A DNA stretch of 64,000 nt from Pseudomonadota bacterium (GTDB taxonomy: Bacteria > Pseudomonadota > Alphaproteobacteria > Rhizobiales > Aestuariivirgaceae). A model generated the notes under the pieces. The model had not been told where the DNA came from, searched no databases, and saw only the letters and a list, made by a program, of their open reading frames with translations. The translations under genes and the position numbers were made by a program. The stretch covers positions 395,729 through 459,728 of the forward strand of contig JAIUNJ010000003.1 of NCBI GenBank assembly GCA_020161855.1. Direction: 5' to 3'. This document shows positions 19,416 through 34,362 of the stretch, in pieces. Position 1 is the stretch's first letter. Each line of letters starts with the position of its first letter.

Positions 19416-20618
19416 TTAGAGCCACGGCGGCAGCTCGAAAGGCTGCTCGATGTATGGCTCTGGTGCAATAAGGGCCGGCGATTCCCCGGGACTACGCAGT
19501 TGATAGAAGAGATGCGGTATTCCAAGCGATGGATCTTGCGTTGCATCCGGATAGGGTACCGCAGCCTGCCATGTCGGATGATAGTGAATCATGCCTACGA
19601 CGCTGCGGTAAGGAATATCGATCAATGCCTTTGCAATGCGGCGGTTGATTTCCCCATTGCCGGGTTCGCCCGTGCCTCCGGCAACCGCCGCCGCAATGGC
19701 ATAATGATGCAGCGAGGAGTAGGGCTGGCATCCGATTTCAGGAGTCGATAGCGGCCCGAAACGCGCCCGATAGTTCGCCGCGAACTTCTTGCCGATCTCA
19801 TCGCGCGGCAGGCCGATCACCGTGCAGGTGATAACGCCCCTCGCCTTCTCTCCCGTAATTTCCGAGAAAGCACTGTGCAGTGCGCCATACTGCAAATAGA
19901 GCAACGATGGCAGCGGCTTCTCCATGAATTGCAGATGAAATCGTGCCAGGTCACCGGCATGAAAATGCGTCATCGCAACGATGGCCGGATCATGAACACG
20001 AATCTTTTCAAGTGCCTCCCGCCAGTCGGCATTTGTCGGATGGATCTGCGGAGCAATTGGCAACTCCCAACCGAATTTCGGCGCAGAGACCGCCATCGCA
20101 TTGGCGATGACAATGCTGTAGGGCTTCGGACCCGAAATGATCGCAACCCGGCGGTTGCGCGGCCGCCAGCGATGGCTGTCGCGCAGCCACGACAGGAACT
20201 TGATGAAGCCCTGCCCGTACCAGTACTCGGCAGGATCGCCCATGAAACAGCCGAAATAGCGCGTCGGATCACTGGCAACTGTGTCGTGATGCTGCACCAG
20301 AGTATTGTGATGGATATAGATGATGCCGGCATCGGCGATTGGCTCGTACTCAGCATTTTGCGGACCGATATTGTAGCCATTGATGATGGCCGAGGCCCGG
20401 TGCTGATGGATAAGTTGCCGCGCGGCCCTCACAACCTCAACAGCGGACTGGTTTCCGGTGTCGACGAACTCAGCTTCGAGTCGGCGGCCAAGAATGCCTC
20501 CGCGTGCATTCACCTCGTCGATCGCCATGCTGAGCCCATTGCGGAACTCGCGCCCATCATTGGCCGATGTTCCCGTCAGCGGAACCATGCTGCCAATGAT
20601 GATCGGAGCCGTGCTCAT
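19416..20618 (-). CDS. Leaderless type-I periplasmic-binding-protein homologue (amide/urea type), probable cytoplasmic sensor
   Basis: 400 residues of the branched-chain amino acid/amide-binding fold (Peripla_BP_6), starting directly with the first beta strand (PIIIGSMVPLTGTSANDGRE) and carrying no signal peptide or Tat motif. The only upstream start within the gap is ATG 20618, 3 bp after the stop of the histidine kinase gene. The protein should therefore be cytoplasmic, like AmiC of Pseudomonas, which senses amides. It ends in PPWL, close to the RPSPWW end of the exported binding protein at 23293-24621, and shares motifs such as LYLQYG with it. The three-gene set with the kinase and response regulator suggests it reports the same ligand inside the cell. 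This is inference from context. Confidence 0.75.
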   Translation of the reverse strand: MSTAPIIIGSMVPLTGTSANDGREFRNGLSMAIDEVNARGGILGRRLEAEFVDTGNQSAVEVVRAARQLIHQHRASAIINGYNIGPQNAEYEPIADAGIIYIHHNTLVQHHDTVASDPTRYFGCFMGDPAEYWYGQGFIKFLSWLRDSHRWRPRNRRVAIISGPKPYSIVIANAMAVSAPKFGWELPIAPQIHPTNADWREALEKIRVHDPAIVAMTHFHAGDLARFHLQFMEKPLPSLLYLQYGALHSAFSEITGEKARGVITCTVIGLPRDEIGKKFAANYRARFGPLSTPEIGCQPYSSLHHYAIAAAVAGGTGEPGNGEINRRIAKALIDIPYRSVVGMIHYHPTWQAAVPYPDATQDPSLGIPHLFYQLRSPGESPALIAPEPYIEQPFELPPWL

Positions 20619-20621
20619 GCG

Positions 20622-22154
20622 TTAAGGCAACTCCGCCATGAGACCGGGCTCGAACAGCAGATTGTGCATGACAACGCGTAGCGAGGGTGGACTCACCGGT
20701 TTGATGAGCAAGGGAAAGCCCTGCGCACGGATTGAAGCGATCACCTCCGGGGCCGTATCGGCTGTCATGACAATCGCCGGGCATGGCTTGTCGAGAAGAT
20801 CGTTGAGTGTGCCCACAAGATCTGTGCCTTGAATGCGGCCACGCAAGCGGTAATCGGTGAGGATGATGTCGGGCTGACCGTCCAGTGTGCTGACGGCTTC
20901 AGCAACATGGTCAAAATCATCGATGGTGACGACCGTCATTCCCCAGCGCTCGAGCAGAGAGATGATCGCCTCCCGCAGTATTCTGTCGTCCTCCAGCACA
21001 AGACAACACAGGCCTGCGAACTCGCCGCCAATTCTTTCGCTGATCTCCGGTTCATCGCCACCGCTATGCCAGACATTGCCGATGGGGACATCGATGAAAA
21101 ACAGAGATCCTCTGCCCAACTCGCTTGTAAGCCCCAGCGTATGGCCAAGAATAGCCGAGAGGCGCTGCGCAATGTTGAGCCCCAGCCCGAGGCTGTGGCG
21201 GGCCTGAGCCTGCGTATCACTGACGCGATAGAACTCGGCAAAGATGGCGTCGTGATGCTCCGGTGCGACGCCAATTCCTGTGTCACCCACCATGATCCTC
21301 AGCAGGCGGCCATGCCGTCGGCAACCCACAAGCACGCGGCCAACCTCTGTGTAGTTGATGGCATTGCTGACAAGGTTGGAAAGAATCCGCTCGAGGAGCA
21401 CCCGGTCACTGACAACAGCGAGCTTGGAGGGAATGATCCGCAGGTCCAGTCCCTTTTCACGCGCCTGGTGCGCAAACTGAACCTGCAGCCTGGTGAGAAT
21501 GGCCGATATCTGGAATGTGGCCACCGAAGGCTCAATCTTTCCGGCATCGAGTTGGCCGATGTTGAGCAAGGCTCCAAGCAAATCCTCCATGATGGAAACG
21601 GAGACTTCCATTGCATGAAGCGCTTGTTTGCGATCAGCCTCTTTGTCTGCGACAAGGCAGGAATAGACAAGAATTTTCAGCGATGCGAGCGGCTGCCGGA
21701 GATCATGATTGGCGGCTCTCAGAAAGCGCGACTTGCTTTGATCCGCTGCTGTCGCCTTGTCTCTCGCCTGGACAAGCGCCATGGAATTGCGGCGGGCTTC
21801 GGTCACGTCAGTCAGCAGCGAGATGGCGCCACCAGAAGGCAGGGCTGAATCGATTGCAGAGAGAACACGCCCATCGGCACAGATCAGAAGCATACCGTGA
21901 AGGCGCAGCACCGGGGCGCCGTTCGGAGACTCAAAACCGATCAAGGTGCCCTGCCGCTTCGTGAACTCAAGCAGTTCGGACACATTCAACCCAACGAGAG
22001 CTGACTGCGGAACGCCGAAGCTCGCAGCGAAGGCGGAGTTGCAATATTCTAACTGGCCGCTGACGGACCAGATGCCGAGACCTTGCTGCAGGTGACGGAG
22101 CGCGGTGGCTTCATGGCTTGACTGATCTCCCTCCGGGCTCTCAGTGATTGCCAT
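20622..22154 (-). CDS. Soluble hybrid sensor histidine kinase (PAS-HisKA-HATPase-receiver)
   Basis: 510 residues with no membrane segment. A PAS-like domain spans ~18-120 (GLGIWSVSGQLEYCNSAF). The phospho-acceptor is His150 in AANHDLRQPLASL. The ATPase domain has the N-box NLVSNAINY (260-268), DTGIGV (291-296) and LGLGLN (322-327). A C-terminal receiver (~383-500) has acidic residues at 389-390 and phospho-Asp434 in IILTDYRL. It overlaps the response-regulator gene by one base and is 3 bp from the binding-protein homologue. Being soluble, it must sense a cytoplasmic signal, perhaps through its PAS domain or by contact with the neighbouring ligand-binding protein. Confidence 0.88.
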   Translation of the reverse strand: MAITESPEGDQSSHEATALRHLQQGLGIWSVSGQLEYCNSAFAASFGVPQSALVGLNVSELLEFTKRQGTLIGFESPNGAPVLRLHGMLLICADGRVLSAIDSALPSGGAISLLTDVTEARRNSMALVQARDKATAADQSKSRFLRAANHDLRQPLASLKILVYSCLVADKEADRKQALHAMEVSVSIMEDLLGALLNIGQLDAGKIEPSVATFQISAILTRLQVQFAHQAREKGLDLRIIPSKLAVVSDRVLLERILSNLVSNAINYTEVGRVLVGCRRHGRLLRIMVGDTGIGVAPEHHDAIFAEFYRVSDTQAQARHSLGLGLNIAQRLSAILGHTLGLTSELGRGSLFFIDVPIGNVWHSGGDEPEISERIGGEFAGLCCLVLEDDRILREAIISLLERWGMTVVTIDDFDHVAEAVSTLDGQPDIILTDYRLRGRIQGTDLVGTLNDLLDKPCPAIVMTADTAPEVIASIRAQGFPLLIKPVSPPSLRVVMHNLLFEPGLMAELP

Positions 22155-22852
22155 CAGCGACCGTCGTTCTTGGCAGAGCGATTGACGGCAAAGAGAATGG
22201 CCGCCTCACGGCTCTTCAGGCCAAGTTTTCGCATGGCATTGCCGAGGTGAACGCGAACTGTTTGCGCTGTGATGCCAAGCATTTCCGAGATATCGGGAAT
22301 GGCGCGCCCCTTGCCCAACAATCCGATGATCTCGTCTTCTCGCCTGCTGAGGCGCGGGCCGTCTGTCCGGTCTGGCTGAGGTGCATGTTCAGTTGCCACG
22401 GGCCAGGAGCGTGTGAGCAGTTCACGCGGAAAATAAACCTCTCCGCCAAAGATCCGTGTGAGTGCGCGGCGTATCTCCTCGGCATCGGCGGATTTCGGAA
22501 TGTAGCCGATGACACCATTCTGGATAGCCTGGCGCACATAATCCGGATCCTCGTGGATCGAAACAACGGCCACAGGAACACTGGGAAAACGCCGGCGCAA
22601 CAACTCAAGCCCCTTGAAGTCCTTTACGCCCGGCATGACGAGATCAACGAGAATGAGGCTGATGTAGGGATCGTGATCAAGGATCGTCAGGGCTTCCTCG
22701 AATGTCGCAGCCTCCTTGATGTCGATGCTGGCATCAATACCACGCGCCACCTGCTTCAGCGATTCACGCACGACCCAGTGGTCATCGGCAATGAGAATTG
22801 TGAAGGCTGGCAAAGGCTTGGGGAGAGGGGCGATCATCGGAGGCTCATCCAT
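22154..22852 (-). CDS. NarL/LuxR-type response regulator
   Basis: 232 residues: receiver (~17-140) with Asp23-Asp24, phospho-Asp70 in LILVDLVMPG and Lys in IPKSADAEE, then a LuxR-type HTH (~165-225) with LSRREDEIIGLLGKG and TAQTVRVHLGNAMRKLGL. It is the first gene of the minus-strand sensory operon and is divergent from the amide transport/dimethylformamidase operon, whose 440-bp upstream region is the natural target. Start ATG 22852; the frame contains no better start. Confidence 0.88.
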   Translation of the reverse strand: MDEPPMIAPLPKPLPAFTILIADDHWVVRESLKQVARGIDASIDIKEAATFEEALTILDHDPYISLILVDLVMPGVKDFKGLELLRRRFPSVPVAVVSIHEDPDYVRQAIQNGVIGYIPKSADAEEIRRALTRIFGGEVYFPRELLTRSWPVATEHAPQPDRTDGPRLSRREDEIIGLLGKGRAIPDISEMLGITAQTVRVHLGNAMRKLGLKSREAAILFAVNRSAKNDGR

Positions 22853-23292: not shown

Positions 23293-24621
23293 ATGACGCT
23301 CAAGAGCATTAACAAGGGTGTGCACTCATTGGCGGGCGTGCCGCTCACGAGGCGTACCGCTTTGAAGGCCGCGCTCGGTGGCGCCGCCTCAACATTGGCT
23401 GCGCCCAAGGTCATTGCATCTGGCAACGACAAGCTCATCATCGGTGTTCCGTCGTCACTCTCCACGCCCTACGGCGTCGCCGACGACACCGATCACCTGA
23501 ACGGAACCAAGCTCGCTGTTGAGGAGATCAACGCTGCGGGTGGTGTTCTTGGCAGGGAGATCGAACTCTTCGTGCCCGACATCGACAAGCTGTCGCCGGA
23601 AAGCTGCCGGCAGGCCATTGCAGCATGCATTGACAAGAAGGTGCATGCCATTTCCAACGCCTTCGTTTTCGCACCGGTCCCCGCAATGGATGAATCGGTG
23701 AAATACAAGTGCCCATACTTGCAGGGCAATACGCAGCGCGACGCGACGCTGGCCTTCAAGGCCGACCCGGTGAAGTACAGCCACGTCCTCCAGACCGATC
23801 CTTCTGAAGTGAACTATGGCTGGACCTATCCGCTCTGGCTGACAAAAATGGAAGAAACGGGCGTGTGGAAGCCCAAGAACCGGAAGATTCATATTGTTGC
23901 CGAACAGGTTGGCTACTGCCAGACCATTCTGAAAGCCGCGAAGGAGGCGATTCCGAAGTACAACTTCGAACTCGCCGCAGTCACCGACATCCAGTATCCC
24001 GTGAACGACTGGAGCCCGGTCATTCAGAAGCTCAAGGAAGTCGACGCAGCCGCGATCATGATCGATCACTGGGTGGCTGCCGAATATGCAGCCTTCTGCA
24101 AGCAATTCAGCGAAGACCCGGTGCCGGGCTCCATCGTGTATCTGCAATATGGTCCATCGCAACCCGAGTTCCTGCAGCTCGGCGGCGCGGCGACAGAAGG
24201 CTTCTGCTGGAGCACGGTTCTGGGCGTCTATGGCGATCAGACCGGCCAGGATTTCCGAAAGAAATATCTCGCCAAGTACCCCGAGTTCACTGGCAACATG
24301 GGCCTTGTTTACACTGGCAATGGCTACGACATCGTCCAGTACCTCAAGCGCGCCTGGGAGGCCACCGGCAAGCCGGAAGATTTTGCAGCAAACTGCAAGT
24401 GGATCCGCGAGAACCCCTATCGTGGCGTCTGCGGCATGATGGACATGAACAACGAATATCAGGAAGCCCTGCACTACCCGGACAACGGGTTTGGCAACCA
24501 GGCTGCCGAGCTCGAGAAGGGCATGAGCCAGCTCTTCGTTCAGGTTCAGGACGGAGAACACAAGATTATCTGGCCTGGCGAGATTGCTGAATCCAAGCTT
24601 CGTCCTTCACCTTGGTGGTGA
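23293..24621 (+). CDS. Amide/urea-type ABC transporter substrate-binding protein
   Basis: 442 residues, Peripla_BP_6 fold. A twin-arginine signal is visible (TRRTALKAALGGAAS from residue 19, cleavage near VIASG at ~43). The mature protein starts KLIIGVPSSLSTPYGVADDT. Motifs WVAAEYAAFCKQF and YLQYGPSQPEFL and the end RPSPWW resemble urea- and short-amide-binding proteins rather than leucine-type ones. It is the first gene of an eight-kilobase operon ending in dimethylformamidase-like subunits, so the ligand is probably a formamide or similar amide. The leaderless homologue at 19416-20618 probably binds a related ligand. Confidence 0.83.
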   Translation: MTLKSINKGVHSLAGVPLTRRTALKAALGGAASTLAAPKVIASGNDKLIIGVPSSLSTPYGVADDTDHLNGTKLAVEEINAAGGVLGREIELFVPDIDKLSPESCRQAIAACIDKKVHAISNAFVFAPVPAMDESVKYKCPYLQGNTQRDATLAFKADPVKYSHVLQTDPSEVNYGWTYPLWLTKMEETGVWKPKNRKIHIVAEQVGYCQTILKAAKEAIPKYNFELAAVTDIQYPVNDWSPVIQKLKEVDAAAIMIDHWVAAEYAAFCKQFSEDPVPGSIVYLQYGPSQPEFLQLGGAATEGFCWSTVLGVYGDQTGQDFRKKYLAKYPEFTGNMGLVYTGNGYDIVQYLKRAWEATGKPEDFAANCKWIRENPYRGVCGMMDMNNEYQEALHYPDNGFGNQAAELEKGMSQLFVQVQDGEHKIIWPGEIAESKLRPSPWW

Positions 24622-24637
24622 TTGGACGGTGCGGGCA

Positions 24638-25363
24638 ATGAAGTTCAAGTCCACGCCTATCTTCACGTGTGAGGGCCTGTCGCTCGACTTGGGCGGGCGG
24701 GAGGTCCTGCGCGACATTGGCCTTGAACTTCACCCAGGCGAAGTGCTCGGAATCATTGGCCCGAACGGCGCCGGCAAGACAAGCTTGCTGGAGATCCTTT
24801 CGGGCCGTTATCGTCCCAAGACGGGCAAAGTCACCTTTGAGGGACAGGACATTACCAGCCTGCCCCTGTTTGAGCGCGCCAGGCGCGGCATTGGCCGCAC
24901 TTACCAGACCCCGCTGGTGCCGGAAGACCTGACGGTCGGTGAAACATTCAAGGCGGTGCGGCAGGCCTTCCGCCCTTGGCTTACCCGCTTTGATGCCGAG
25001 TACGGCGCAAATCTCGTGCACTTTCGCACCCCTCACGACAAACCAAACTCTGGTCTCAAGACATTCGAGCGGCGCAAGCTGCTCTTGTCCTGCCTGCTGA
25101 TGCGGCAGCCGAAGGTGTTGCTGATGGATGAACCGGCGGCGGGACTGATCAACGCGGAGATAGACGAGATTGATCAGATCCTTCGCATGCTCTCCAAGGA
25201 AATGAACATGGCTGTTCTTATAGTCGAGCATCGCATCGAGCTTCTCGAGTCGATCGCCGACCGTGTCATCGTCATGGACGCTGGCGAAATCATCGCACGC
25301 GGTGAACTGGAAGAGATCATCGATAGCCCCGCAGTCCGTGCTGCATATTTTGAAGCGCATTGA
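24638..25363 (+). CDS. LivG-type ABC ATPase with degenerate signature motif
   Basis: 241 residues. Walker A is GPNGAGKTS (near 41-49), the Q-loop is RTYQTPLVPEDLTV and Walker B is VLLMDEPAAGL. The canonical signature (LSYGEQRRL or similar before Walker B) is not there: the aligned stretch reads LKTFERRKLLLSCLLM. The start ATG 24638 is 17 bp after the binding-protein stop; the longer frame from 24584 overlaps that gene. The H-loop is VEHRIELL. It pairs with the LivF-type ATPase that follows, which has an intact signature. Confidence 0.85.
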   Translation: MKFKSTPIFTCEGLSLDLGGREVLRDIGLELHPGEVLGIIGPNGAGKTSLLEILSGRYRPKTGKVTFEGQDITSLPLFERARRGIGRTYQTPLVPEDLTVGETFKAVRQAFRPWLTRFDAEYGANLVHFRTPHDKPNSGLKTFERRKLLLSCLLMRQPKVLLMDEPAAGLINAEIDEIDQILRMLSKEMNMAVLIVEHRIELLESIADRVIVMDAGEIIARGELEEIIDSPAVRAAYFEAH

Positions 25364-25371
25364 GGACAGCA

Positions 25372-26082
25372 ATGAACGAGGTTCTCAAGGTTGAAGGTTT
25401 GTCCGCAGGCTACGGTCCTCTGCGGGTCATCCACGATCTCGACCTTGTTGTGAATCCAGGCGAACGCGTCGGCATCGTAGGCCTCAACGGCCACGGCAAG
25501 ACCACGCTTTTCTATGCCATCGCAGGCCTCACCGGCTGGCAGCGCGGTTCGATTCTGCTGACCGGCAAGCAGATTGGCCGCACGCGCAGCCAGGGCCCGG
25601 GCCGCTATACCCACCAGATTGTGCGGCAGGGTCTCGCGATCATGCCGCAAGGCGATGAGATCTTTCAGGGCCTCACCGTCGAAGAGCACCTCGATTCAGG
25701 GGCTTTCACACCCGATGCCTGGCGAACCCGCAAAGAGCGGAAAGAGCGCGTACTCGATATCTTTGAACCTCTCCGCAAGCTGATGCGGATGCCGGTAGGC
25801 AGATTGTCGGGAGGCGAGCGGCGCATGGTGTCCATCGGCCGCGGCTTGATGACCGATGCCAAACTCTACCTTGCCGATGAACCTTCACTGGGGCTCGCAC
25901 CAAAGATCGGCATGGCTGTGATGGAGGCACTGCTCGCCATAAATCTCAAGGACAGCGCCATGTTGATCGCCGAGCAGAATGTCGCCCTGCTTGAAGGCAA
26001 GGTCGACCGCGTCATCGGCATGCATGCAGGAAAGCTGAAAGGCGAAGCCTCATCTTCATTCCGCTTGTCGGGAAATCGCTGA
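25372..26082 (+). CDS. LivF-type ABC ATPase
   Basis: 236 residues. Walker A GLNGHGKTT (near 36-44), signature LSGGERRMVSIGRGL (near 144) and Walker B LYLADEPSLGL are complete. The start is ATG 25372, 8 bp after the LivG stop; an in-frame TTG at 25360 overlaps it. It is the second cytoplasmic subunit of the amide transporter. Confidence 0.87.
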   Translation: MNEVLKVEGLSAGYGPLRVIHDLDLVVNPGERVGIVGLNGHGKTTLFYAIAGLTGWQRGSILLTGKQIGRTRSQGPGRYTHQIVRQGLAIMPQGDEIFQGLTVEEHLDSGAFTPDAWRTRKERKERVLDIFEPLRKLMRMPVGRLSGGERRMVSIGRGLMTDAKLYLADEPSLGLAPKIGMAVMEALLAINLKDSAMLIAEQNVALLEGKVDRVIGMHAGKLKGEASSSFRLSGNR

Positions 26083-26092
26083 GGACCAGTTC

Positions 26093-26995
26093 ATGGATAT
26101 AGCCTTCATCTTCGTCAACGCCATCACAGTCGCCGCGATCTACGGGCTCATCGCTGTCGCCGTATCGATCACGTGGTCCAGCCTTGGCCTCATCAACCTG
26201 GCCTATGGTTTTATCTATTCATTTGCTGGCTATTCAGCCTGGCTGGTGGCGACCTATGTCGCCCGCCAATACCTGGATCCAGCGCTGCATCCATTCGTGA
26301 TCGCCGCCACCGGCATCCTCGCGGGCGCGCTCGGAGGCATCCTCGTCTGCCTCGTGGTGTTTATCCCGCTGCACGACAAGCCTGCTTTCACCTCGCGCGG
26401 CATGATCGCCACCTTGGCGATCAGCCTTATCGGCAGCCAATTGCTCCTGATGGCGTTCGGCCCCACGGCAAAGTCCCTGCCTGAACTCTTCGGCCGCTGG
26501 CGCGTCAAGTTCATGGATATCACGCTGACCGCCGACAAGATCGGCATCGTCGTGTGCTCGGCGCTCATGCTCGCCGTCGTTGTCATGTGGATGCGCTCAA
26601 GCCGTCGCGGACTTGAGATCAGGGCGATGATGATGAACCCGCATGCTGCCTCGATTGTCGGCATCGGCATCCGCCGCACCGGAATCTACGTGATGGCGCT
26701 GACGGGTGCCATGGCGGGGTTGGCAGCAGTCTTGCTTTCACAGACTTACTTCATCTCACCATTCTCCGGCCTTACCCCTCTCATCAAAGGCGTGTCCATC
26801 GCCTTGTGCGGCGGCCTTGGCTCAATTCAGGGCGCGGTCATCGCCGCCATACTTCTTGGCCTTGTAGAGGCGCTGACCAACAAGTTCATGGGCGGTCAGT
26901 ATGTTCTGATGACCCAGTTCCTCTTCATCATCCTCGTACTTATCGTCAGGCCGCGCGGCATCTCGGGCCTGCTGGACAAAGCCCGGGAGCAATAA
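26093..26995 (+). CDS. LivH-type ABC permease
   Basis: 300 residues, normal length for LivH/UrtB permeases, with about eight hydrophobic segments. Motifs ITWSSLGLINLAYGF near the N-terminus and ALCGGLGSIQGAVIAAILLG near 240-260 are typical. ATG 26093 is preceded by GAGGAC. It overlaps nothing and is 3 bp from the LivM-type gene. Confidence 0.87.
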   Translation: MDIAFIFVNAITVAAIYGLIAVAVSITWSSLGLINLAYGFIYSFAGYSAWLVATYVARQYLDPALHPFVIAATGILAGALGGILVCLVVFIPLHDKPAFTSRGMIATLAISLIGSQLLLMAFGPTAKSLPELFGRWRVKFMDITLTADKIGIVVCSALMLAVVVMWMRSSRRGLEIRAMMMNPHAASIVGIGIRRTGIYVMALTGAMAGLAAVLLSQTYFISPFSGLTPLIKGVSIALCGGLGSIQGAVIAAILLGLVEALTNKFMGGQYVLMTQFLFIILVLIVRPRGISGLLDKAREQ

Positions 26996-26998
26996 GTC

Positions 26999-28657
26999 AT
27001 GAGTGACGCCACAACCCCAAAGACTTATCGCTGGAAAAATCCATTGTCGGCGTGGGAAACAACGACCGGCAATGATGAAGCAGATTCAATCACCGTTGCC
27101 GATCCCGCCATGCCGTGGCAGGCGAGCAAAGGTTTCAAAGTCGAAACCCATCCCGTCGGCCGGTTGAAGTATTTCGTTGTCTGGCCAGCACATGGTGCAC
27201 GTACATGGGACCGGGCACGCTGGTGGCCGACGCGGCGCAACTTTCTGAACATCAAGGGCCTCTATAATCGCAAGACAGCTGTGGCCGAGAAGAAGATTCT
27301 CGACCGGAAGCCGATCTATTGGTTGCTCTGCCTCATTGCGCTGGCTCTCGGCCCCATCCTCTTCCCCGAGAACCAGACGAACGCATTGCTGACGGCAGGT
27401 GCAACATTCGGAATCTTCGCCGCCATCAACGTCTGCTGGACCCTGATCATCGGGACCGCGTCGATCTTCTCGCTCGCAACCTATGCCGTCGTCGGCACAG
27501 CAGCTTTCGTCACCTCGTTCCTGTCAATCCAGTATGGCGTGCCGTGGTACTTTCTGATGCCTGCCGGGGCCCTCATCGGCCTTGCCTTTGGTGTGCTCAT
27601 TGCCATCCCGGCCCTGCGGCTTGACGGCTTCTACTACGCCCTCCTCACCCTTGGGCTGAACGAATTGTTCCGAGTGTTTTTCACCACATCAAAGCAGTTT
27701 GGCTCCGCTTCCGGAGGCCTCTATGGCGCCGATTCCTTCATCAATCCGGACTGGGAGCCGTTGACGCAATCCTATGTCGCTTACTACGCGGCATTCGGGC
27801 TTCTCGTCGCCAGCCTGTTTCTGTTTCGCTTCATCAATGGCAAGCGTCTCGGCCGCGTGCTGCGCATGGCGCCGGAGAAGCGAGAGGCCTTCGCCGCTGC
27901 CTGCGGCGTCGACTACAAGCGTGCTCGCATCACGATCTTCCTTGCAACGTCGACGGCCCTGGGCTTCATCGGCGGCTTCTACGCGGCACAGTACCGTGGC
28001 GTGGCCTATTCGATCTTCGACTTCCAGACGGTGTTGCTCGGCCTCGCCATGGTGACCATCGGCGGCATCGGACGGGCGGAAGGGGCAGTTCTTGGCACAC
28101 TGGTCGTGATCTTCCTGAGAGATGTGCTGATCGAGTTCGGTCCCATCCGCTATTTGATCATTGGTGCCGCCATGCTCGCCGTCGTCCTGTTCCTCAACAA
28201 CGGCTATTTCGGCATTCGCAAGCAGTTCAACGCGTGGCGCGCCAAGAAGCGCGGAGAATGGCGTTCAACACGCGCCGAGAAGGGCGGCGAACTGCTTCCG
28301 GAAGAGGCAACAGAGATCGATGACAAGGATCACCTCTACTTCCGCCGCTACGACAAGATGCAACGCGACTATCTGAAGACACTGATCAAGCCGGAGATCA
28401 TCGAAGAACATCGCCGCCAACCCCTTGGACAGCACTCGGAGGCCCTGGAACGCGTCCTGCTCTATTTCCGCCGCGCAAAAATGGAGGACAAATACGCCTT
28501 GCGCAGCGCAGGCCCTCACGGTCCCTACAAGATCATCGCCTTCTCCGGCACACGGGGCGTATCGCCGCGTCTGGTCGATGACCGTGAATTCGTGACGCTC
28601 GATGAAGCATACCACGGCGTATTCATGCGCCGCGTGCACGATCTTCTGGAAAGCTGA
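26999..28657 (+). CDS. LivM-type ABC permease fused to a dimethylformamidase small-subunit-like domain
   Basis: 552 residues, about 200 longer than an ordinary LivM. Residues 1-100 are a hydrophilic, Trp-rich N-terminal extension without recognisable homology. Residues ~105-400 are the permease, with FYYALLTLGLNELFRVFF and GLAMVTIGGIGRAEGAVLG. Residues ~441-551 are a soluble cytoplasmic domain homologous to the next gene product: both have IEEHRR about 30 residues in, an F/I-S-G motif in the middle, and the ending E-A-x-H-G-V-F-x-R-x-x-D-L. By eye roughly four in ten aligned positions are identical. There is no frameshift or stop between permease and domain. I know of no described permease with this domain. 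Confidence 0.85.
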   Translation: MSDATTPKTYRWKNPLSAWETTTGNDEADSITVADPAMPWQASKGFKVETHPVGRLKYFVVWPAHGARTWDRARWWPTRRNFLNIKGLYNRKTAVAEKKILDRKPIYWLLCLIALALGPILFPENQTNALLTAGATFGIFAAINVCWTLIIGTASIFSLATYAVVGTAAFVTSFLSIQYGVPWYFLMPAGALIGLAFGVLIAIPALRLDGFYYALLTLGLNELFRVFFTTSKQFGSASGGLYGADSFINPDWEPLTQSYVAYYAAFGLLVASLFLFRFINGKRLGRVLRMAPEKREAFAAACGVDYKRARITIFLATSTALGFIGGFYAAQYRGVAYSIFDFQTVLLGLAMVTIGGIGRAEGAVLGTLVVIFLRDVLIEFGPIRYLIIGAAMLAVVLFLNNGYFGIRKQFNAWRAKKRGEWRSTRAEKGGELLPEEATEIDDKDHLYFRRYDKMQRDYLKTLIKPEIIEEHRRQPLGQHSEALERVLLYFRRAKMEDKYALRSAGPHGPYKIIAFSGTRGVSPRLVDDREFVTLDEAYHGVFMRRVHDLLES

Positions 28658-28667
28658 GGCTGGCGCC

Positions 28668-29045
28668 ATGGTGAAGGCAAAGGCAAACAAGAGCGACGCC
28701 TCCGTTCCTCCGGCCGACAAGGACATCCATGTCCGCGATCACTTCGACCAGATGACCCGGAAGTACCTGTTGAGCGTGCTTTCCGACGAGTTGATTGAGG
28801 AGCATCGCCGCGGACCTTCGCATATGAGCGAGCCGCTTGCCCGGCTTCTCGCCTGGAGCCAGAGGCGGCCGCTTGCCGAACAATATGCCGTGAAGGCCGA
28901 GGGCGATGGCAGTTTCCGCCTGATTTCCTTCAGCGGCCTGCGCCACCGTAAACCGGACTACGTCGGCGATGAAAGCTTCGCCACACTCGCGGAGGCTCGC
29001 CATGGCGTCTTCCTCCGCCACATCAAGGATCTCACAGGGAAGTAA
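28668..29045 (+). CDS. dmfA1: N,N-dimethylformamidase small (alpha) subunit-like protein
   Basis: 125 residues, close to the ~130-residue light chain of bacterial dimethylformamidases. Features matching that family as I know it are DELIEEHRRGP (40-50), a central Tyr/aromatic strand (YAVKAEGDGSFRLISFSG), DESFATLAEARHGVFLRHIK near the end, and a charged N-terminus. It lies 10 bp after the LivM fusion gene and 2 bp before the large-subunit gene. The start is ATG 28668; a longer frame from 28602 overlaps the permease gene. Its closest visible relative is the C-terminal domain of the upstream permease. Confidence 0.8.
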   Translation: MVKAKANKSDASVPPADKDIHVRDHFDQMTRKYLLSVLSDELIEEHRRGPSHMSEPLARLLAWSQRRPLAEQYAVKAEGDGSFRLISFSGLRHRKPDYVGDESFATLAEARHGVFLRHIKDLTGK

Positions 29046-29047
29046 AG

Positions 29048-31369
29048 ATGGCTCAGCAAAAGATCTTCGGCTACGCAAACCGGATATCGGTCAAGCCCGG
29101 GGAAGAGATCACTTTTCATGTGAACTGTGATGGTGCGAGCGAGGCCAAGGCCCAGCTTGTCCAGTTGATCCATGGTGACACCCACAAGGACGGTCCCGGC
29201 CATATCGAACGCGAAGTCGACGGACCGGCCAACGGCACCTGGCAGGTCAAGAAGCAGTTCACGCAGCTCGGCAGCTTTCTCGAGGTTGACGATCCCCAGC
29301 AGAAGCTCGCAGTCACGGGCGCGCTTTCCCTCATGGCCTTCATCTGGCCAACCCGAACGAAGAAGGGAATCCGTCAGACAATTCTCGGTCGCTGGGATAC
29401 ATTCCGGAACGCGGGCTACGCCCTTGGAATCAATCCAGCCGGCCATCTTGAGTTCTGGGTCGGCGACGGCAAGGAAGTTGACTATGTCACCGCCGAACTG
29501 CCGCTGCTCGACAAGGTCTGGTATCTGGTCGGCGTCTCATATGACCCTGCAACGGGCCGCGCCGAAATCTACCAGGAAGGGGTACTGAACCGCTACAATT
29601 CTCTCATCGGCAAGGTGGTTCCCTATGAATTTGCCAGCCACACTTCGCAGAAATTCCGCTTCAAGCCCTCACATCTTCCGGCAACGCCGTTCCTGATCGC
29701 AGGCGCGCGCGACCAGCATGAGCTGCGCGGCCCCTTCGTCAGCGATCATTTCGCCGGCAAGATTGACCGGCCCGCGATCTGCATGCGTGCCCTGAGCCGC
29801 AAGGACTTTGATGAGTTGAAGCAGGGCGCTTTGCCGCCAAAAGACAGCGTGCTCGCCTACTGGGATACGGCAGCGGGCTACACGGCAGATGGTATCGGAC
29901 CCGATGTCATTGACACCGGTCCCCATGGTCTCACGGCAAGGGGTGTGAACCATCCCGTCCGCGCCATGACTGGCTGGAACTGGAACGGCAGAGATGACTG
30001 TTTCCGTCTTGATCCCTCGCAGTACGGTGGCATCGAGTTCCACCCTGACAGCGTCACTGATTGCCGCTGGGAGGTGACCAGCCGCATGACGGTGCCTGAA
30101 AATCTGCCAAGCGGAATCTATGCCATGCGCCTGCGCGTAGGTCCCGGCACAGGCATCGCAGAGGAATACATCGTCTTCGTCGTGAGGCCACGCACGCCCA
30201 AGGGCAAGCTGTGCTTCCTCGTCCCCTCGGCGAGCTATCTCGCCTATGCCAACGAGATGTTGAGCTTTGAAGCCCACATCATCCAGCCGATGACCGGCCA
30301 GCCGCCCGTCGTCACGGACCTGGATATCGAGACCTACGAGCACGGTGAATACGGCCTCTCGACCTACGATCATTTCGAAGATGGTGCTGGTGTTTGTTTC
30401 ACGTCCTATCTGCGCCCGATCATCAACATGCGCCCCAAGCACCGGATGTCGGGCATGAACGTGACCTGGCAATTCCCGGCTGACCTGTCGATCGTCGCCT
30501 GGATCGATCACATGGGATATGATTGCGACTTCATCACCGATGAGGATCTCCATCGTGAAGGACTGGACATTCTCACCCCCTATAATTGCGTGATCACGGG
30601 CACGCATCCTGAGTATGTGTCCGAGCGGATGCTGGACGCGCAGGAGGACTATGTGGCTGGCGGCGGGCGCCTCATCTATATGGGCGGCAACGGATACTAC
30701 TGGGCCGTAGGTTTCGCCGGGGACAATCCGGAATGCATGGAGGTTCGCAAACTCGATTCAGGCATGCGTGCCTGGGCCGCGCGGCCTGGCGAACACTATC
30801 TCCAGACAACCGGAGAAAAGAGCGGCCTTTGGCGAAATCGCGGACGCGCGCCCCAGAAGCTGACAGGCGTCGGCTTCATTGCTGAAGGCTTCGAAACGGC
30901 CGCACCCTACCGGAAGATGCCTGATGCCTGGCATCGCACTGTGTCCTGGATCACCAAAGGTGTGGAAGGCGAGATCATCGGCGACCAGGGCCTGGCCTAT
31001 GGCGCTGCTGCCGGCGTCGAACTCGACCGCTATGATCTCTCGCTCGGCACGCCACCGCACACCAAGATCATCGCGTCATCAGGCGGGCATTCGGATAACT
31101 ACGTGCTGGTCACAGAGGAGCTGCTGTATGCCTATGCAGGCCTCGTTGGTTCGCTAGATTATCGCATTCGCGCCGACATGACGTATTTCACGGCACCAAA
31201 CAATGGCGCTGTCTTCTGCACAGGTTCAATCGGCTACGGACAGGCGCTTCCGGCGAACGGCTTCGATAACTCGGCAGCCAAGGTGCTTGCCAACGTGGTG
31301 AACGCCTTCCTCAAATCCGAACGGCTGCCCGGGCAGCAATGGTCTCTGGAAGAGAAGCAGTGGCGCTGA
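29048..31369 (+). CDS. dmfA2: N,N-dimethylformamidase large (beta) subunit-like protein
   Basis: 773 residues, close to the ~760 of known large subunits. The N-terminal ~270 residues include a LamG-like jelly-roll (EFWVGDGKEVDYVTAELP, KVWYLVGVSYDPATGRAEIY). The C-terminal half is the catalytic region. Known dimethylformamidase uses a mononuclear iron held by two Tyr and one carboxylate. Plausible equivalents here are Tyr400 (SASYLAYANEM), Tyr440 (YGLSTYDHFED) and Glu522 (TGTHPEYVSE). The enzyme hydrolyses dimethylformamide to dimethylamine and formate; the exact amide substrate of this one is open. It is the last gene of the operon, and the convergent beta-helix gene ends 152 bp downstream. 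Confidence 0.8.
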   Translation: MAQQKIFGYANRISVKPGEEITFHVNCDGASEAKAQLVQLIHGDTHKDGPGHIEREVDGPANGTWQVKKQFTQLGSFLEVDDPQQKLAVTGALSLMAFIWPTRTKKGIRQTILGRWDTFRNAGYALGINPAGHLEFWVGDGKEVDYVTAELPLLDKVWYLVGVSYDPATGRAEIYQEGVLNRYNSLIGKVVPYEFASHTSQKFRFKPSHLPATPFLIAGARDQHELRGPFVSDHFAGKIDRPAICMRALSRKDFDELKQGALPPKDSVLAYWDTAAGYTADGIGPDVIDTGPHGLTARGVNHPVRAMTGWNWNGRDDCFRLDPSQYGGIEFHPDSVTDCRWEVTSRMTVPENLPSGIYAMRLRVGPGTGIAEEYIVFVVRPRTPKGKLCFLVPSASYLAYANEMLSFEAHIIQPMTGQPPVVTDLDIETYEHGEYGLSTYDHFEDGAGVCFTSYLRPIINMRPKHRMSGMNVTWQFPADLSIVAWIDHMGYDCDFITDEDLHREGLDILTPYNCVITGTHPEYVSERMLDAQEDYVAGGGRLIYMGGNGYYWAVGFAGDNPECMEVRKLDSGMRAWAARPGEHYLQTTGEKSGLWRNRGRAPQKLTGVGFIAEGFETAAPYRKMPDAWHRTVSWITKGVEGEIIGDQGLAYGAAAGVELDRYDLSLGTPPHTKIIASSGGHSDNYVLVTEELLYAYAGLVGSLDYRIRADMTYFTAPNNGAVFCTGSIGYGQALPANGFDNSAAKVLANVVNAFLKSERLPGQQWSLEEKQWR

Positions 31370-31521: not shown

Positions 31522-34362
31522 TCAATGTGCCTCAAAGGGCCCAAGATCGGCTGGCGTTGTGCGAGGCGTAGCATTCCAATCTTGCACTGCGTCCATCAGG
31601 AGCGCACCGGCGTCAAGGTAGGGCGACTTTGAAGTTGGGATGTACCCATTGACGTTGCCGGTGACAGAAGCCGGAAACGCTGCAAACCACTCGGCGCTGA
31701 ACTCCGGCATCTCGATCTCACTGCTGTTGGGGCTGCGTCCCTCGAGGTAGCCAGCGCCGTAAAAATTGGACCCGAAGACACTCTCTTTTGCCGTGTCATC
31801 CACTTCCATAAGCAGAGCCCTTGGCTCCTTGGCAGCTGTACCCGAATTGATTGTGACGCCGAGAAGCACGTTGTTCTTGAAAATGTTACGGCTGGAATTG
31901 TTGATGAACTGTACGGCATGTTTGCCGGAGGACAAAAACAGGTTGTGCAGTATGGCATTATCACTGGAGCCGAGCTTGGGATTCTCCGTCTCCTGCCAGA
32001 AGGACACATTATGACGGTTCTGTAGTCCGAAGACGTTGTTGCGTATGACGCTTCGCCTCAGGCTCGTGAAATTCGGGCCAACAGCATCGTGATGAAAGTG
32101 GTTGGCTTCGATTAGAAAGTAGTCACTGGCGCCGCGGCCACCCTCACCGGTACCAGCGTAAGCGTCACAAGAAGGGTCGTCCACTGCCACGCCGTCTTCG
32201 CTGCAGGTGGACATCGGATCAGCATTGATCTGAAAGCCACTTGATGCGTTGGAATGAGTCTCATTGAATCGAACAATGTTCCAATCACTGCCATTGCTTA
32301 TGTAGAGCCCATGCCCATCTCCATCCTGGGCATCGTAGGCGATGTTGTTTTCCCAGATGTTCCAGTCGGATTGCGCTGAAAAGAAGGGGTCCCGCTCCTG
32401 GCCATGACCACTGTTGTTCATCACCAGTATGCCTCGGGAATGCTGGCTGGCGTCATACCCCGAACCCACTGCGCGAACGCCGTAGACGCCGCCAATGAGC
32501 TCGAAGCCGCGGATGGCGACATAGCTCGCGCCCTCCAGATTGAAGCAGGTCTTTCGCTTGCCTGCCTCACAACTCATCTGGACACCAGGGCCCCCGTCAT
32601 CGGCGGGCTCACCCATGATGACGATTGGATCGTCGTAGCTTCCACTGGATTCTGCCGTCAGTTCCAGTCCGCCGGCATAGGTGCCTCGCAGAAAATGGAT
32701 CAAGGTGCCGGGCTTTGCGATGCGGAGTGCATCAGAAGCCGCCATGGGAGATTGCGGGCTTGAACCATCACCGCCTCCAGACGGACCAACAAACAATTGC
32801 ACAGACGGCACCCAGGAAGGGTCAGTATATGAACGATTGAAGGCCTCCTTGAAGCCCATGTAGGCTTCCCCCCTCGAAATGGCACGATCGATTGAGGAGC
32901 CTGCCGACGCAGCACTTGTTTCGACTGGAGAGGCGACTTGCTGTTCTACCGGCGCCGGCAAGGGCAACTGGGCATTCGCAGTGGTAGCCTCCGTTGAGTT
33001 GGCGCTGGCGGAAGGCGCGGCGCCGCCATCGAAAGGCGGCACCGTCGACGGATCGGCCGGCGGCAGATTGTCGGCAGCGAAGCGGATGAATATTGTGCCG
33101 TCACCATAGGTCTGCTGCACGCGCGACGATTCGACTGTGACAATAACCTTCTCACAGGGCGTGCTGGAACCGCAGGCAACGCCGAAGTCGGCATCCTTGG
33201 CGTTTCCCCAGAACACCGAGCTTTTGAAGCTGTGTTGATCCCGGGGGTTGATCTCACCATTTTCAATCATCACGCCGACCCCTGGCGCCTGGCAATCCAC
33301 GGAGAGAGCAAAGATATTTGTGATGTGGTCAAATGTGGATCGTGTTGGATCGGAGCCGTCCGGTCCACCGTCGAGCAGTATATTGCCGCCGCAGTTCTTT
33401 TCGTAGAAATCGTTGGTGACATTGCAGACGGCGCCATCGTCGCAGAAGAAGCCACCACCAGCGTTACCTGCGCGATTGCCACGAAAGACGTTGTCTGAGA
33501 GCGTTGCAGTGGTCGGTTGATTGCCCGCAGTATAGGCACCTACATAGAGACCGCCACCCCACTTGGTCACAGAGTTGTTGAGGAATGTGTTGCCGGAAAT
33601 CCGCAGCGTGTTACCAAAAAAGTAGAAGCCGCCTCCATGCGAGCTGTCAGGTTCTGTTCCGGCATTGCCTTCGACCCAATTGTTCTCGATAACCACCGCG
33701 TTCTTGTTCGTTGAATCATTCAGAAAGCCTGCGCCACCGCGCCCGCACTTGTTGTCATGGATGACATTGCCTGAAATCGTCCCGGAAATATTGACGAGGG
33801 CAAAAGCCGCACCGGCCAAGGCTTGGTCCGAACACACATTGTCATGAATGAAGTTGTTGGTGATATCGAAGCGCTGGCTTTCCCAGAAATCGCGGACAAT
33901 GGCTTGCGAGAAGCCGGAGATATCAAAGCCATCGACGGCTGTGAGTTGCTCTCCAGTGGGAGCAGGATCAACGACCCGAAGGAATATGCCACCATTGCCG
34001 GACAGTTTGCTAACGAACCGCGCGCTGTCCCTGACCTGAAAATTGCTGCCGGACTGGAAGCCGCCGGCGAGAGAGAAATACTTCTCTCCAGGAGCCAGCT
34101 GTTCCTGATAGATCCCCTCCGCCACGCAAATGACAGCACCGCTGGCGACGGCGTCGGCAGCTTCGGAAATGCGTTGCCATGGCTTTGCCGATGTACCGTC
34201 GCCCTGGCCTGGAACGTTGCCATCCACATAGGCCGTACATGCGGGCACTTCAGTTGCGCGGGCCACGGTTTGAGCTTTGGCAGCCGTCACCAGGCCGACC
34301 ACCAGAGAAAGCGCCCCCATGACAGTGACTCCCATAAGGGAGTGAATTCGCCGGCCTGTCAT
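31522..34362 (-). CDS. Exported protein with two right-handed parallel beta-helix domains
   Basis: 946 residues. The signal peptide (1-31) ends TAAKAQ. Domain A (~40-430) opens with YVDGNVPGQGDGTSAKPW and has many N-x-F/V-x-x-N rungs such as GNTFLNNSVTKWGGGLY. A Pro/Ala/Thr-rich linker spans ~433-510. Domain B (~525-930) opens again with LFVGPSGGGDGSSPQSP, and its rungs include WNIWENNIAYDAQDGDGHGL. The same opening in both halves points to an internal duplication. Beta-helix proteins bind or cleave polysaccharides or act as adhesins; no catalytic motif was recognised. The start is ATG 34362 with AGAGG upstream. It is the last gene of the exported-protein cluster, 23 bp after the previous stop. 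Confidence 0.8.
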   Translation of the reverse strand: MTGRRIHSLMGVTVMGALSLVVGLVTAAKAQTVARATEVPACTAYVDGNVPGQGDGTSAKPWQRISEAADAVASGAVICVAEGIYQEQLAPGEKYFSLAGGFQSGSNFQVRDSARFVSKLSGNGGIFLRVVDPAPTGEQLTAVDGFDISGFSQAIVRDFWESQRFDITNNFIHDNVCSDQALAGAAFALVNISGTISGNVIHDNKCGRGGAGFLNDSTNKNAVVIENNWVEGNAGTEPDSSHGGGFYFFGNTLRISGNTFLNNSVTKWGGGLYVGAYTAGNQPTTATLSDNVFRGNRAGNAGGGFFCDDGAVCNVTNDFYEKNCGGNILLDGGPDGSDPTRSTFDHITNIFALSVDCQAPGVGVMIENGEINPRDQHSFKSSVFWGNAKDADFGVACGSSTPCEKVIVTVESSRVQQTYGDGTIFIRFAADNLPPADPSTVPPFDGGAAPSASANSTEATTANAQLPLPAPVEQQVASPVETSAASAGSSIDRAISRGEAYMGFKEAFNRSYTDPSWVPSVQLFVGPSGGGDGSSPQSPMAASDALRIAKPGTLIHFLRGTYAGGLELTAESSGSYDDPIVIMGEPADDGGPGVQMSCEAGKRKTCFNLEGASYVAIRGFELIGGVYGVRAVGSGYDASQHSRGILVMNNSGHGQERDPFFSAQSDWNIWENNIAYDAQDGDGHGLYISNGSDWNIVRFNETHSNASSGFQINADPMSTCSEDGVAVDDPSCDAYAGTGEGGRGASDYFLIEANHFHHDAVGPNFTSLRRSVIRNNVFGLQNRHNVSFWQETENPKLGSSDNAILHNLFLSSGKHAVQFINNSSRNIFKNNVLLGVTINSGTAAKEPRALLMEVDDTAKESVFGSNFYGAGYLEGRSPNSSEIEMPEFSAEWFAAFPASVTGNVNGYIPTSKSPYLDAGALLMDAVQDWNATPRTTPADLGPFEAH

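Follow-up and report, generated by a model that had tools for sequence, protein, structure and literature searches.

Our analysis points toward an ABC importer of the Liv type that carries part of an enzyme. The LivM-type permease of this importer ends in a domain which, judged by homology, is the small (alpha) subunit of dimethylformamidase (DMFase), and the catalytic large (beta) subunit encoded in the same operon probably docks on this permease-borne alpha, giving an importer-hydrolase complex. The operon lies in the window, a stretch of 64,000 nucleotides of contig JAIUNJ010000003.1 (assembly GCA_020161855.1) from an alphaproteobacterium of the family Aestuariivirgaceae.

Operon layout and the fused permease

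The 5' part of the operon encodes a binding protein, two ATPases, and a LivH-type permease ahead of the LivM-type permease, and the Liv-type importer set (one binding protein, two ATPases, and two BPD_transp_2 permeases) is complete in this one operon (Table 1). By eye, ATG starts at 24638 and 25372 are likelier for the LivG- and LivF-type ATPases than the starts of their longest ORFs. A gap of 10 nt (28658 to 28667) separates the permease stop from the start of a free alpha, and beta starts at 29048, two bases past the stop codon of the latter, just as the initial annotation had the free copy directly preceding the large subunit. A 946-aa protein with a right-handed beta-helix region adjoins the operon (31522 to 34362, minus strand) and is apparently unrelated to it.

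Table 1. Features of the operon and of the divergent gene set in the window
Feature	Position	Strand	Evidence
Binding-protein-fold receptor, probably cytosolic	19416..20618	-	Peripla_BP_6 from residue 5; 3h5l_A E 2.2e-108
Hybrid histidine kinase	20622..22154	-	PAS_7, HisKA, HATPase_c, Response_reg; homologues in L145, L150, L151, L154, L155
LuxR-type response regulator, divergent from operon	22154..22852	-	Response_reg and GerE; homologues beside related operons
Periplasmic substrate-binding protein	23293..24621	+	Peripla_BP_6 E 1.7e-28; nearest PDB entry 3h5l_A E 4.9e-41
LivG-type ATPase, longest ORF	24584..25363	+	ABC_tran E 4.9e-25, scanned from 24611
LivF-type ATPase, longest ORF	25360..26082	+	ABC_tran E 2.1e-27, scanned from 25375
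LivH-type permease	26093..26995	+	BPD_transp_2 E 1e-28
LivM-type permease with N-terminal arm and C-terminal predicted DMFase alpha, 552 aa	26999..28657	+	BPD_transp_2 residues 136-396, E 1.1e-19
N-terminal arm of permease, ~residues 1-104, up to first hydrophobic segment	26999..27310	+	
Linker of permease, residues 407-440, basic then EKGGExLPEEATE-like	28217..28318	+	
Fused predicted DMFase small-subunit (alpha) domain, residues 441-552	28319..28654	+	43% identity to free copy; 6lvb_B E 9.6e-10
Free alpha, 125 aa, apparent derived duplicate of tail	28668..29045	+	6lvb_B E 1.4e-6; alpha tree and AU test
DMFase-type large subunit (beta), 773 aa	29048..31369	+	DMFA2_C E 4.2e-90; 6lvb_A E 7.1e-175

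The likeness of the permease C terminus to the free protein, put at about 40% by eye in the initial annotation, amounts to 43% identity between the last 112 residues of the permease and the free 125-aa protein over 108 positions (82.4 bits; E = 1e-26 in a single comparison). Both proteins match the DMFase small subunit 6lvb_B of the PDB (Table 1), the permease from residue 424 onward, and the suspected kinship of the tail with DMFase light chains is significant by this match. A Pfam scan returned no family for the permease tail or the free alpha. On the strength of these similarities, permease residues 441 to 552 are identified as a DMFase alpha domain. Past its last hydrophobic segment, whose end is near residue 406, the permease has a basic stretch and a linker. 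In our alignment, this linker is conserved in the proteobacterial rows, with EKGGExLPEEATE nearly invariant; conservation is weaker in the two actinobacterial rows. Basic stretches flanking the membrane core suggest that the N-terminal arm and the tail both lie on the cytoplasmic side.

In seven nearby pairs, synonymous change in the tail was far above nonsynonymous change. An artefact of assembly or reading frame is ruled out by this excess of dS over dN and by the presence of the same fusion in 60 other loci, and a common LivM tail unrelated to the enzyme is ruled out by the match to 6lvb_B and by the beta gene downstream in every readable fused locus.

The fused permeases also have an N-terminal arm of about 45 to 105 residues with a conserved basic block, which was present in 58 of the 60 fused loci; the contigs of the other two start inside the core. 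Within the order of the window, the arm was found in 14 of 297 genomes (with up to 15 candidates scored per genome), each of which also had an equally long open frame that matched the fused tail. Two fused genomes of the order are outside these 14: one (G179) is cut by a contig end, and in the other (G439) the arm is present in the locus fetched from it (L063). Plasmid records with the arm numbered 26, and their genus counts (Agrobacterium, 21; Rhizobium, 3; Ensifer, 1; Aminobacter, 1) equal those of the 26 best tail records. A search of all other ORFs of 149 loci, which included the unfused LivM-like proteins of L069 and L149 and own-genome paralogues, gave no arm match up to an E value of 10 beyond the fused permeases. 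Hence, arm and tail behave as one trait, and the arm was found only with the tail.

Distribution of the fusion and gene order

One pattern scan with the tail over 84,980 species genomes gave 33 loci: the tail was joined to LivM in 27, one contig started inside the tail, and five had an unfused alpha only. Genome searches with the tail alignment, source genomes counted, matched 8/69 genomes of the window's family, 51/397 of its order, and 28/385 of its class, as well as 11/394 genomes in the class of an actinomycete (L025) and 8/399 in the order of L014, a record titled Burkholderiales. The weak matches of the family, order, and class searches were free alphas beside beta in the loci that were fetched. 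Among plasmids, 35 records matched, 26 of them at 60 to 80% identity to the tail. After removal of five own-genome loci and eight refetched copies, the fused set comprised 60 loci, 54 of them distinct by their last 300 residues, which answers the call of the initial annotation for a survey of other genomes; three of the 60 came from plasmid records, and the remaining fusion-bearing plasmid matches are outside the set. The named records with the fusion belong to the Alphaproteobacteria, the Betaproteobacteria, and the Actinomycetota, and one is titled Oceanobacillus. This last locus (L012, Oceanobacillus sp. HTM 045) has an operon of the dual type, with a fused and a free alpha, and its tails group with alphaproteobacterial ones although the title of the record points to the Bacillota; its placement reflects either transfer or a wrong label.

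A beta gene follows on the same strand in all 58 readable fused loci (the contigs of L028 and L070 end too early), and a tail without a large subunit nearby, which would have spoken against a link to the enzyme, was not among them. No alpha gene lies between permease and beta in 42 of the 58, and 16 have a free alpha there, as in the window. In 41 of the 42 fused-only loci, the beta match begins 6 to 127 nt past the permease. The exception is L133, with 1288 nt; a 388-codon ORF, porin-like by eye, lies there between the fused permease and beta (L133:1926-3089). No further alpha was seen within the available stretches of the 42 fused-only loci, 12 of which have at least 5 kb downstream. The operon of Methylocella silvestris (L024) is also of the fused-only kind.

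Counts over whole genomes bear on which alpha is available to beta. The genome of the window carries a single fused alpha, a single free alpha, and a single beta. Scoring covered every first-look candidate in Bradyrhizobium nitroreducens TSA1 (G829, the genome of L023) and in the metagenome-assembled actinomycete of L025 (G826); either genome has a lone alpha match, the fused one, and a lone beta. In a genome listed as 100% complete (G296), 10 of the 28 alpha candidates were scored, giving a single alpha match beside a single beta. If beta depends on alpha as in the solved enzyme, and the sole alpha is fused, beta must use the permease-borne alpha in these three genomes. Many fused genomes carry further alphas and betas elsewhere (e.g., G827, G206, and G176), and their enzymes would not all be tethered.

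An unfused counterpart exists in other genomes, where unfused Liv-like genes adjoin free alpha-beta pairs (e.g., L069, L071, and L077 to L080). Free alpha-beta pairs lie directly 3' of Liv-type ATPase genes in L074, L077 to L080, L119, L139, L141, and L142, an unfused type of importer-DMFase operon. Sinorhizobium meliloti (L033) has two tandem alpha-beta pairs behind a long ORF with two ABC-ATPase matches. In L128, one short frame combines the start of an alpha with part of a beta, and a further part of beta follows; this is probably a decayed alpha-beta pair. An apparent archaeal fusion in Halalkalicoccus jeotgali (L143:8779-9321, named inner-membrane translocator) was ruled out, since it is a free alpha of 180 aa, perhaps named after fused permeases. 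Long open frames around alpha in L085, L095, L108, L127, and L129 were likewise rejected as fusions: they have no LivM match and alpha is only their last part. They were counted as free alphas, their lengths being those of the open frames.

Origin of the free alpha

The initial annotation had spoken of a small-subunit-like domain on the permease and of a free subunit. The careful alpha tree (93 rows, 113 columns, many weak forks) reverses the order of copies that this wording implies. Rows below 40 bits or 75 residues, including the truncated fused L028 and L070, had been dropped before, followed by six identical fused copies and 24 long or distant free rows. In the tree, one set (support, 100/99) unites both copies, fused and free, from the 17 dual loci (16 and the window) and also takes in the free copy of the truncated L027; this set stands apart from the other fused tails and from the outgroups, and a quick tree with the 24 long or distant free rows kept gave the dual clade again, with an SH-aLRT of 99. 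A tree constrained to separate the 53 fused rows, as one group, from the 18 duplicates plus 17 outgroup alphas was 34.6 log units worse (p-AU = 0.00017), and the free copy as ancestral subunit is rejected. Without outgroups, fused and duplicate rows are already split on two sides of one branch, and the order therefore rests on where the outgroups attach. Since long branches would pull the duplicates toward the outgroups and not in among the tails, the tree argues for the fusion coming first and the free copy being released later. We infer that the free alpha is a later and faster-evolving duplicate of the tail.

Rates and residues tell the two copies apart as well. Over the 136 pairs of dual loci, mean identity was 75.6% for the fused and 44.6% for the free copy, with the fused pair more alike in 136 of 136. 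In four pairs, dN was 0.017 to 0.093 for the tails and 0.083 to 0.278 for the free copies, and dS was of the same order in both, which points to stronger purifying selection on the tail. Residues R491, K498, G520, and R545 are present in 53/53 tails. Among 47 alphas that do not belong to dual loci, they occur in 42, 41, 44, and 45, respectively, and among 17 free duplicates in only 5, 2, 10, and 1 (the loss of G520 is partial). By these marks, the alpha of canonical type is the permease tail, and it is the free copy that deviates. Thus, the earlier claim of a small-subunit-like domain on the permease stands as regards its homology to DMFase alpha, but not as regards its being an extra copy beside the real subunit: the tail keeps the residues and evolves more slowly, and the free copy is the later one. 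Three alphas without a permease (L147, L030, and L085) fall, weakly placed, among the fused rows, which suggests that tethering is dispensable in some lineages.

Large subunit, sensor set, and substrate

The window beta scores 303.3 bits with DMFA2_C, the curated cut-off being 27. According to PMC7686228, the iron of DMFase is bound by two tyrosines and one glutamate (Y399, Y440, and E521), H519 is essential, and N547 and E657 are proposed to act in catalysis. Numbered through DmfA2 of Paracoccus aminophilus (Y399 to Y400, Y440 to Y440, H519 to H520, E521 to E522, N547 to N548, and E657 to E658), the window beta keeps all six tested catalytic residues: Y400, Y440, H520, E522, N548, and E658. 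The pocket residue F693 is replaced by tyrosine at position 694 of the window beta, as in all 14 readable dual-type betas including that of the window (3 of 17 are unreadable there), an exchange that would bear on the substrate and not on family membership.

Two loci depart from this pattern. In G293 (L065; G293:C1:2732880-2738332), the fused permease is followed by a beta with Y399F, then by a free alpha that resembles the tail profile closely (167 bits), and then by another beta, perhaps from another, separate duplication. On a plasmid of Aminobacter sp. MDW-2, a second beta lies directly behind the first (L144:11841-14204) and has alanine at both E521 and E657; this extra beta may be a noncatalytic partner.

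Divergent from the operon lies a set of receptor, kinase, and regulator genes. The receptor has no signal sequence, its binding-protein fold starting at residue 5, and it probably reads the substrate in the cytosol. Upstream regions were examined at length in nine other fused loci (six fetched regions and the plasmid loci L144 to L146): the whole set is present in five (L150, L151, L154, L155, and L145, whose receptor runs off the end of the stretch), whereas the other four do not have the full set. A homologous regulator was seen in 13 of the 22 loci of L001 to L026 with sequence upstream of the binding-protein gene, which covers only about 1 kb.

As substrates, DMF-like amides are plausible. 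However, for the binding protein, the closest structure (3h5l) is named no more precisely than putative branched-chain amino acid ABC transporter, one enzyme related to beta acts as an N-acetyl-beta-phenylalanine acylase, and a second dmfA1-dmfA2 pair of P. aminophilus had no link to DMF use (PMC4543880). Ten downstream ORFs of eight loci shared no family that would give a clue to the substrate.

A possible importer-hydrolase complex

For the solved DMFase, an iron amidohydrolase of the alpha2beta2 type, PMC7686228 describes beta alone as inactive and alpha as required; a cavity leads to the active site between alpha and beta, with alpha helping to form the entrance, and the N-terminal helix of alpha is wedged between two betas. 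The permease linker joins alpha at its N-terminal end, which is the end of this wedging helix. In our model, which extends to docking, stoichiometry, location, and local capture of substrate, beta would dock on the alpha at the end of the LivM permease, and enzyme and importer would form one complex at the cytoplasmic face. In the ancestral form, still found in most relatives, no other alpha lies beside beta, so that the alpha-dependent activity would be at the membrane. In the lineage of the window, the tail would have been duplicated into the free alpha, which then diverged; the free alpha may fill the second alpha site of the beta dimer, in which case one importer would carry one enzyme dimer, or it may make up a soluble pool. 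Given the part that alpha has in the active-site entrance of the solved enzyme, the tether would place this entrance near the pore exit and favor immediate hydrolysis of the imported substrate.

Docking is strengthened by the 42 of 58 loci that lack an alpha between permease and beta. Counting against it are the steric demand of a 200-kDa enzyme dimer (PMC7686228) placed beside two ATPases by a linker of about 34 residues, the Y399F beta of G293 with a free alpha and a second beta following, and the extra beta of L144 without E521 and E657. A local hand-over, in which cargo is hydrolyzed by the importer on leaving the pore, uptake is made practically irreversible, and the released tail copy allows mixed dimers of one tethered and one free alpha, is a tentative extension that we hold somewhat doubtful. 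Strict channelling is possible, but a receptor that probably reads the substrate in the cytosol would imply that it gets into the bulk cytosol, which counts against such channelling. If the set senses the imported compound there, capture at the pore cannot be complete; the set may be an overflow sensor.

Regulatory proteins are known to dock on transporters, as EIIAGlc does on MalK and GlnK on AmtB, and the permease alpha could similarly bind beta to tune transport to the supply of enzyme, without kinetic coupling of substrate. The anatomy would be the same as in our model, and a probably cytosolic receptor suggests that free substrate is expected in the cytosol; we nevertheless consider this unlikely, since a beta with no other alpha in between at 42 of 58 loci, together with the need of alpha for activity (PMC7686228), makes the tail probably more than a regulator. 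Slightly less probable still is that the permease-alpha chain is a polyprotein, cut in the conserved linker to release a soluble alpha-beta enzyme, so that the fusion serves stoichiometry and timing only. The near-invariant proteobacterial EKGGExLPEEATE would fit a cleavage site and free alphas do occur in relatives, but binding of the linker to beta or to the ATPases accounts for its conservation equally well, and a tandem gene, common in the family, would serve equally.

That beta works without alpha, with the tail a relic or a general binding domain, is imaginable, since beta also matches the related N-acetyl-(R)-beta-phenylalanine acylase (8huy and 8i5a), for which the list of sequence matches shows a single kind of chain. 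The strong purifying selection on the tail, its linkage with beta in 58 of 58 loci, and the loss of DMFase activity without alpha (PMC7686228) make this highly improbable. Docking of beta on the permease-borne alpha remains the reading that we favor.

Relation to known systems and significance

ABC importers are usually taken to discharge their cargo to the cytosol for chance encounters with soluble enzymes. With the Liv- and urea-type importers (LivKHMGF and UrtABCDE), the window operon shares the binding protein, two ATPases, and two BPD_transp_2 permeases; unlike theirs, its LivM carries an arm at the N terminus and an enzyme subunit at the C terminus, and the NCBIfam models of LivM and UrtC gave 61.5 and 48.2 bits with it, far under their cut-offs of 366 and 296.2. 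The acylase mentioned above is homologous to the window beta (E = 8.1e-108) but farther from it than DMFase (364.9 versus 586.7 bits), and we know of no fused permease for it. In amide sensing of the AmiC-AmiR and FmdD types, a receptor with binding-protein fold and without signal peptide lies beside amide genes. The receptor of the window also lacks a signal sequence and lies beside amidohydrolase-type genes; unlike those systems, it has a hybrid histidine kinase and a LuxR-type regulator as partners. With the Paracoccus DMFase (6lvb; DmfA1-DmfA2; PMC7686228), the window shares homologous alpha and beta subunits, the iron ligands, and the other tested catalytic residues. In P. aminophilus, the alpha gene precedes beta, as in the window. 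The differences are that alpha of the Paracoccus enzyme is a free protein, whereas the conserved alpha of the window is the C terminus of a permease with a whole ABC importer in its operon, and that F693 stands against Y694. In the literature searched, mostly without subscription papers, we found no description of an importer permease joined to a DMFase alpha, and none of the titles listed by wider searches for fusions of transporters with enzymes was relevant; within these bounds, the parts are known, and what appears new is the joining of importer permease and enzyme subunit.

In sum, a subunit essential in the solved enzyme is a domain of an importer's permease in at least two phyla. Current annotation hides this fusion: among the best 26 of 35 plasmid matches, the name branched-chain amino acid ABC transporter permease is given to 24, and the other two are unannotated at the site. 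The unfused, fused-only, and fused-plus-free operons offer a natural series for studying how a complex arises and loosens, and the formation of an importer-hydrolase complex and the local passage of substrate become directly testable. The fusion suggests that the pump and the enzyme that degrades its cargo may be one machine at the membrane.
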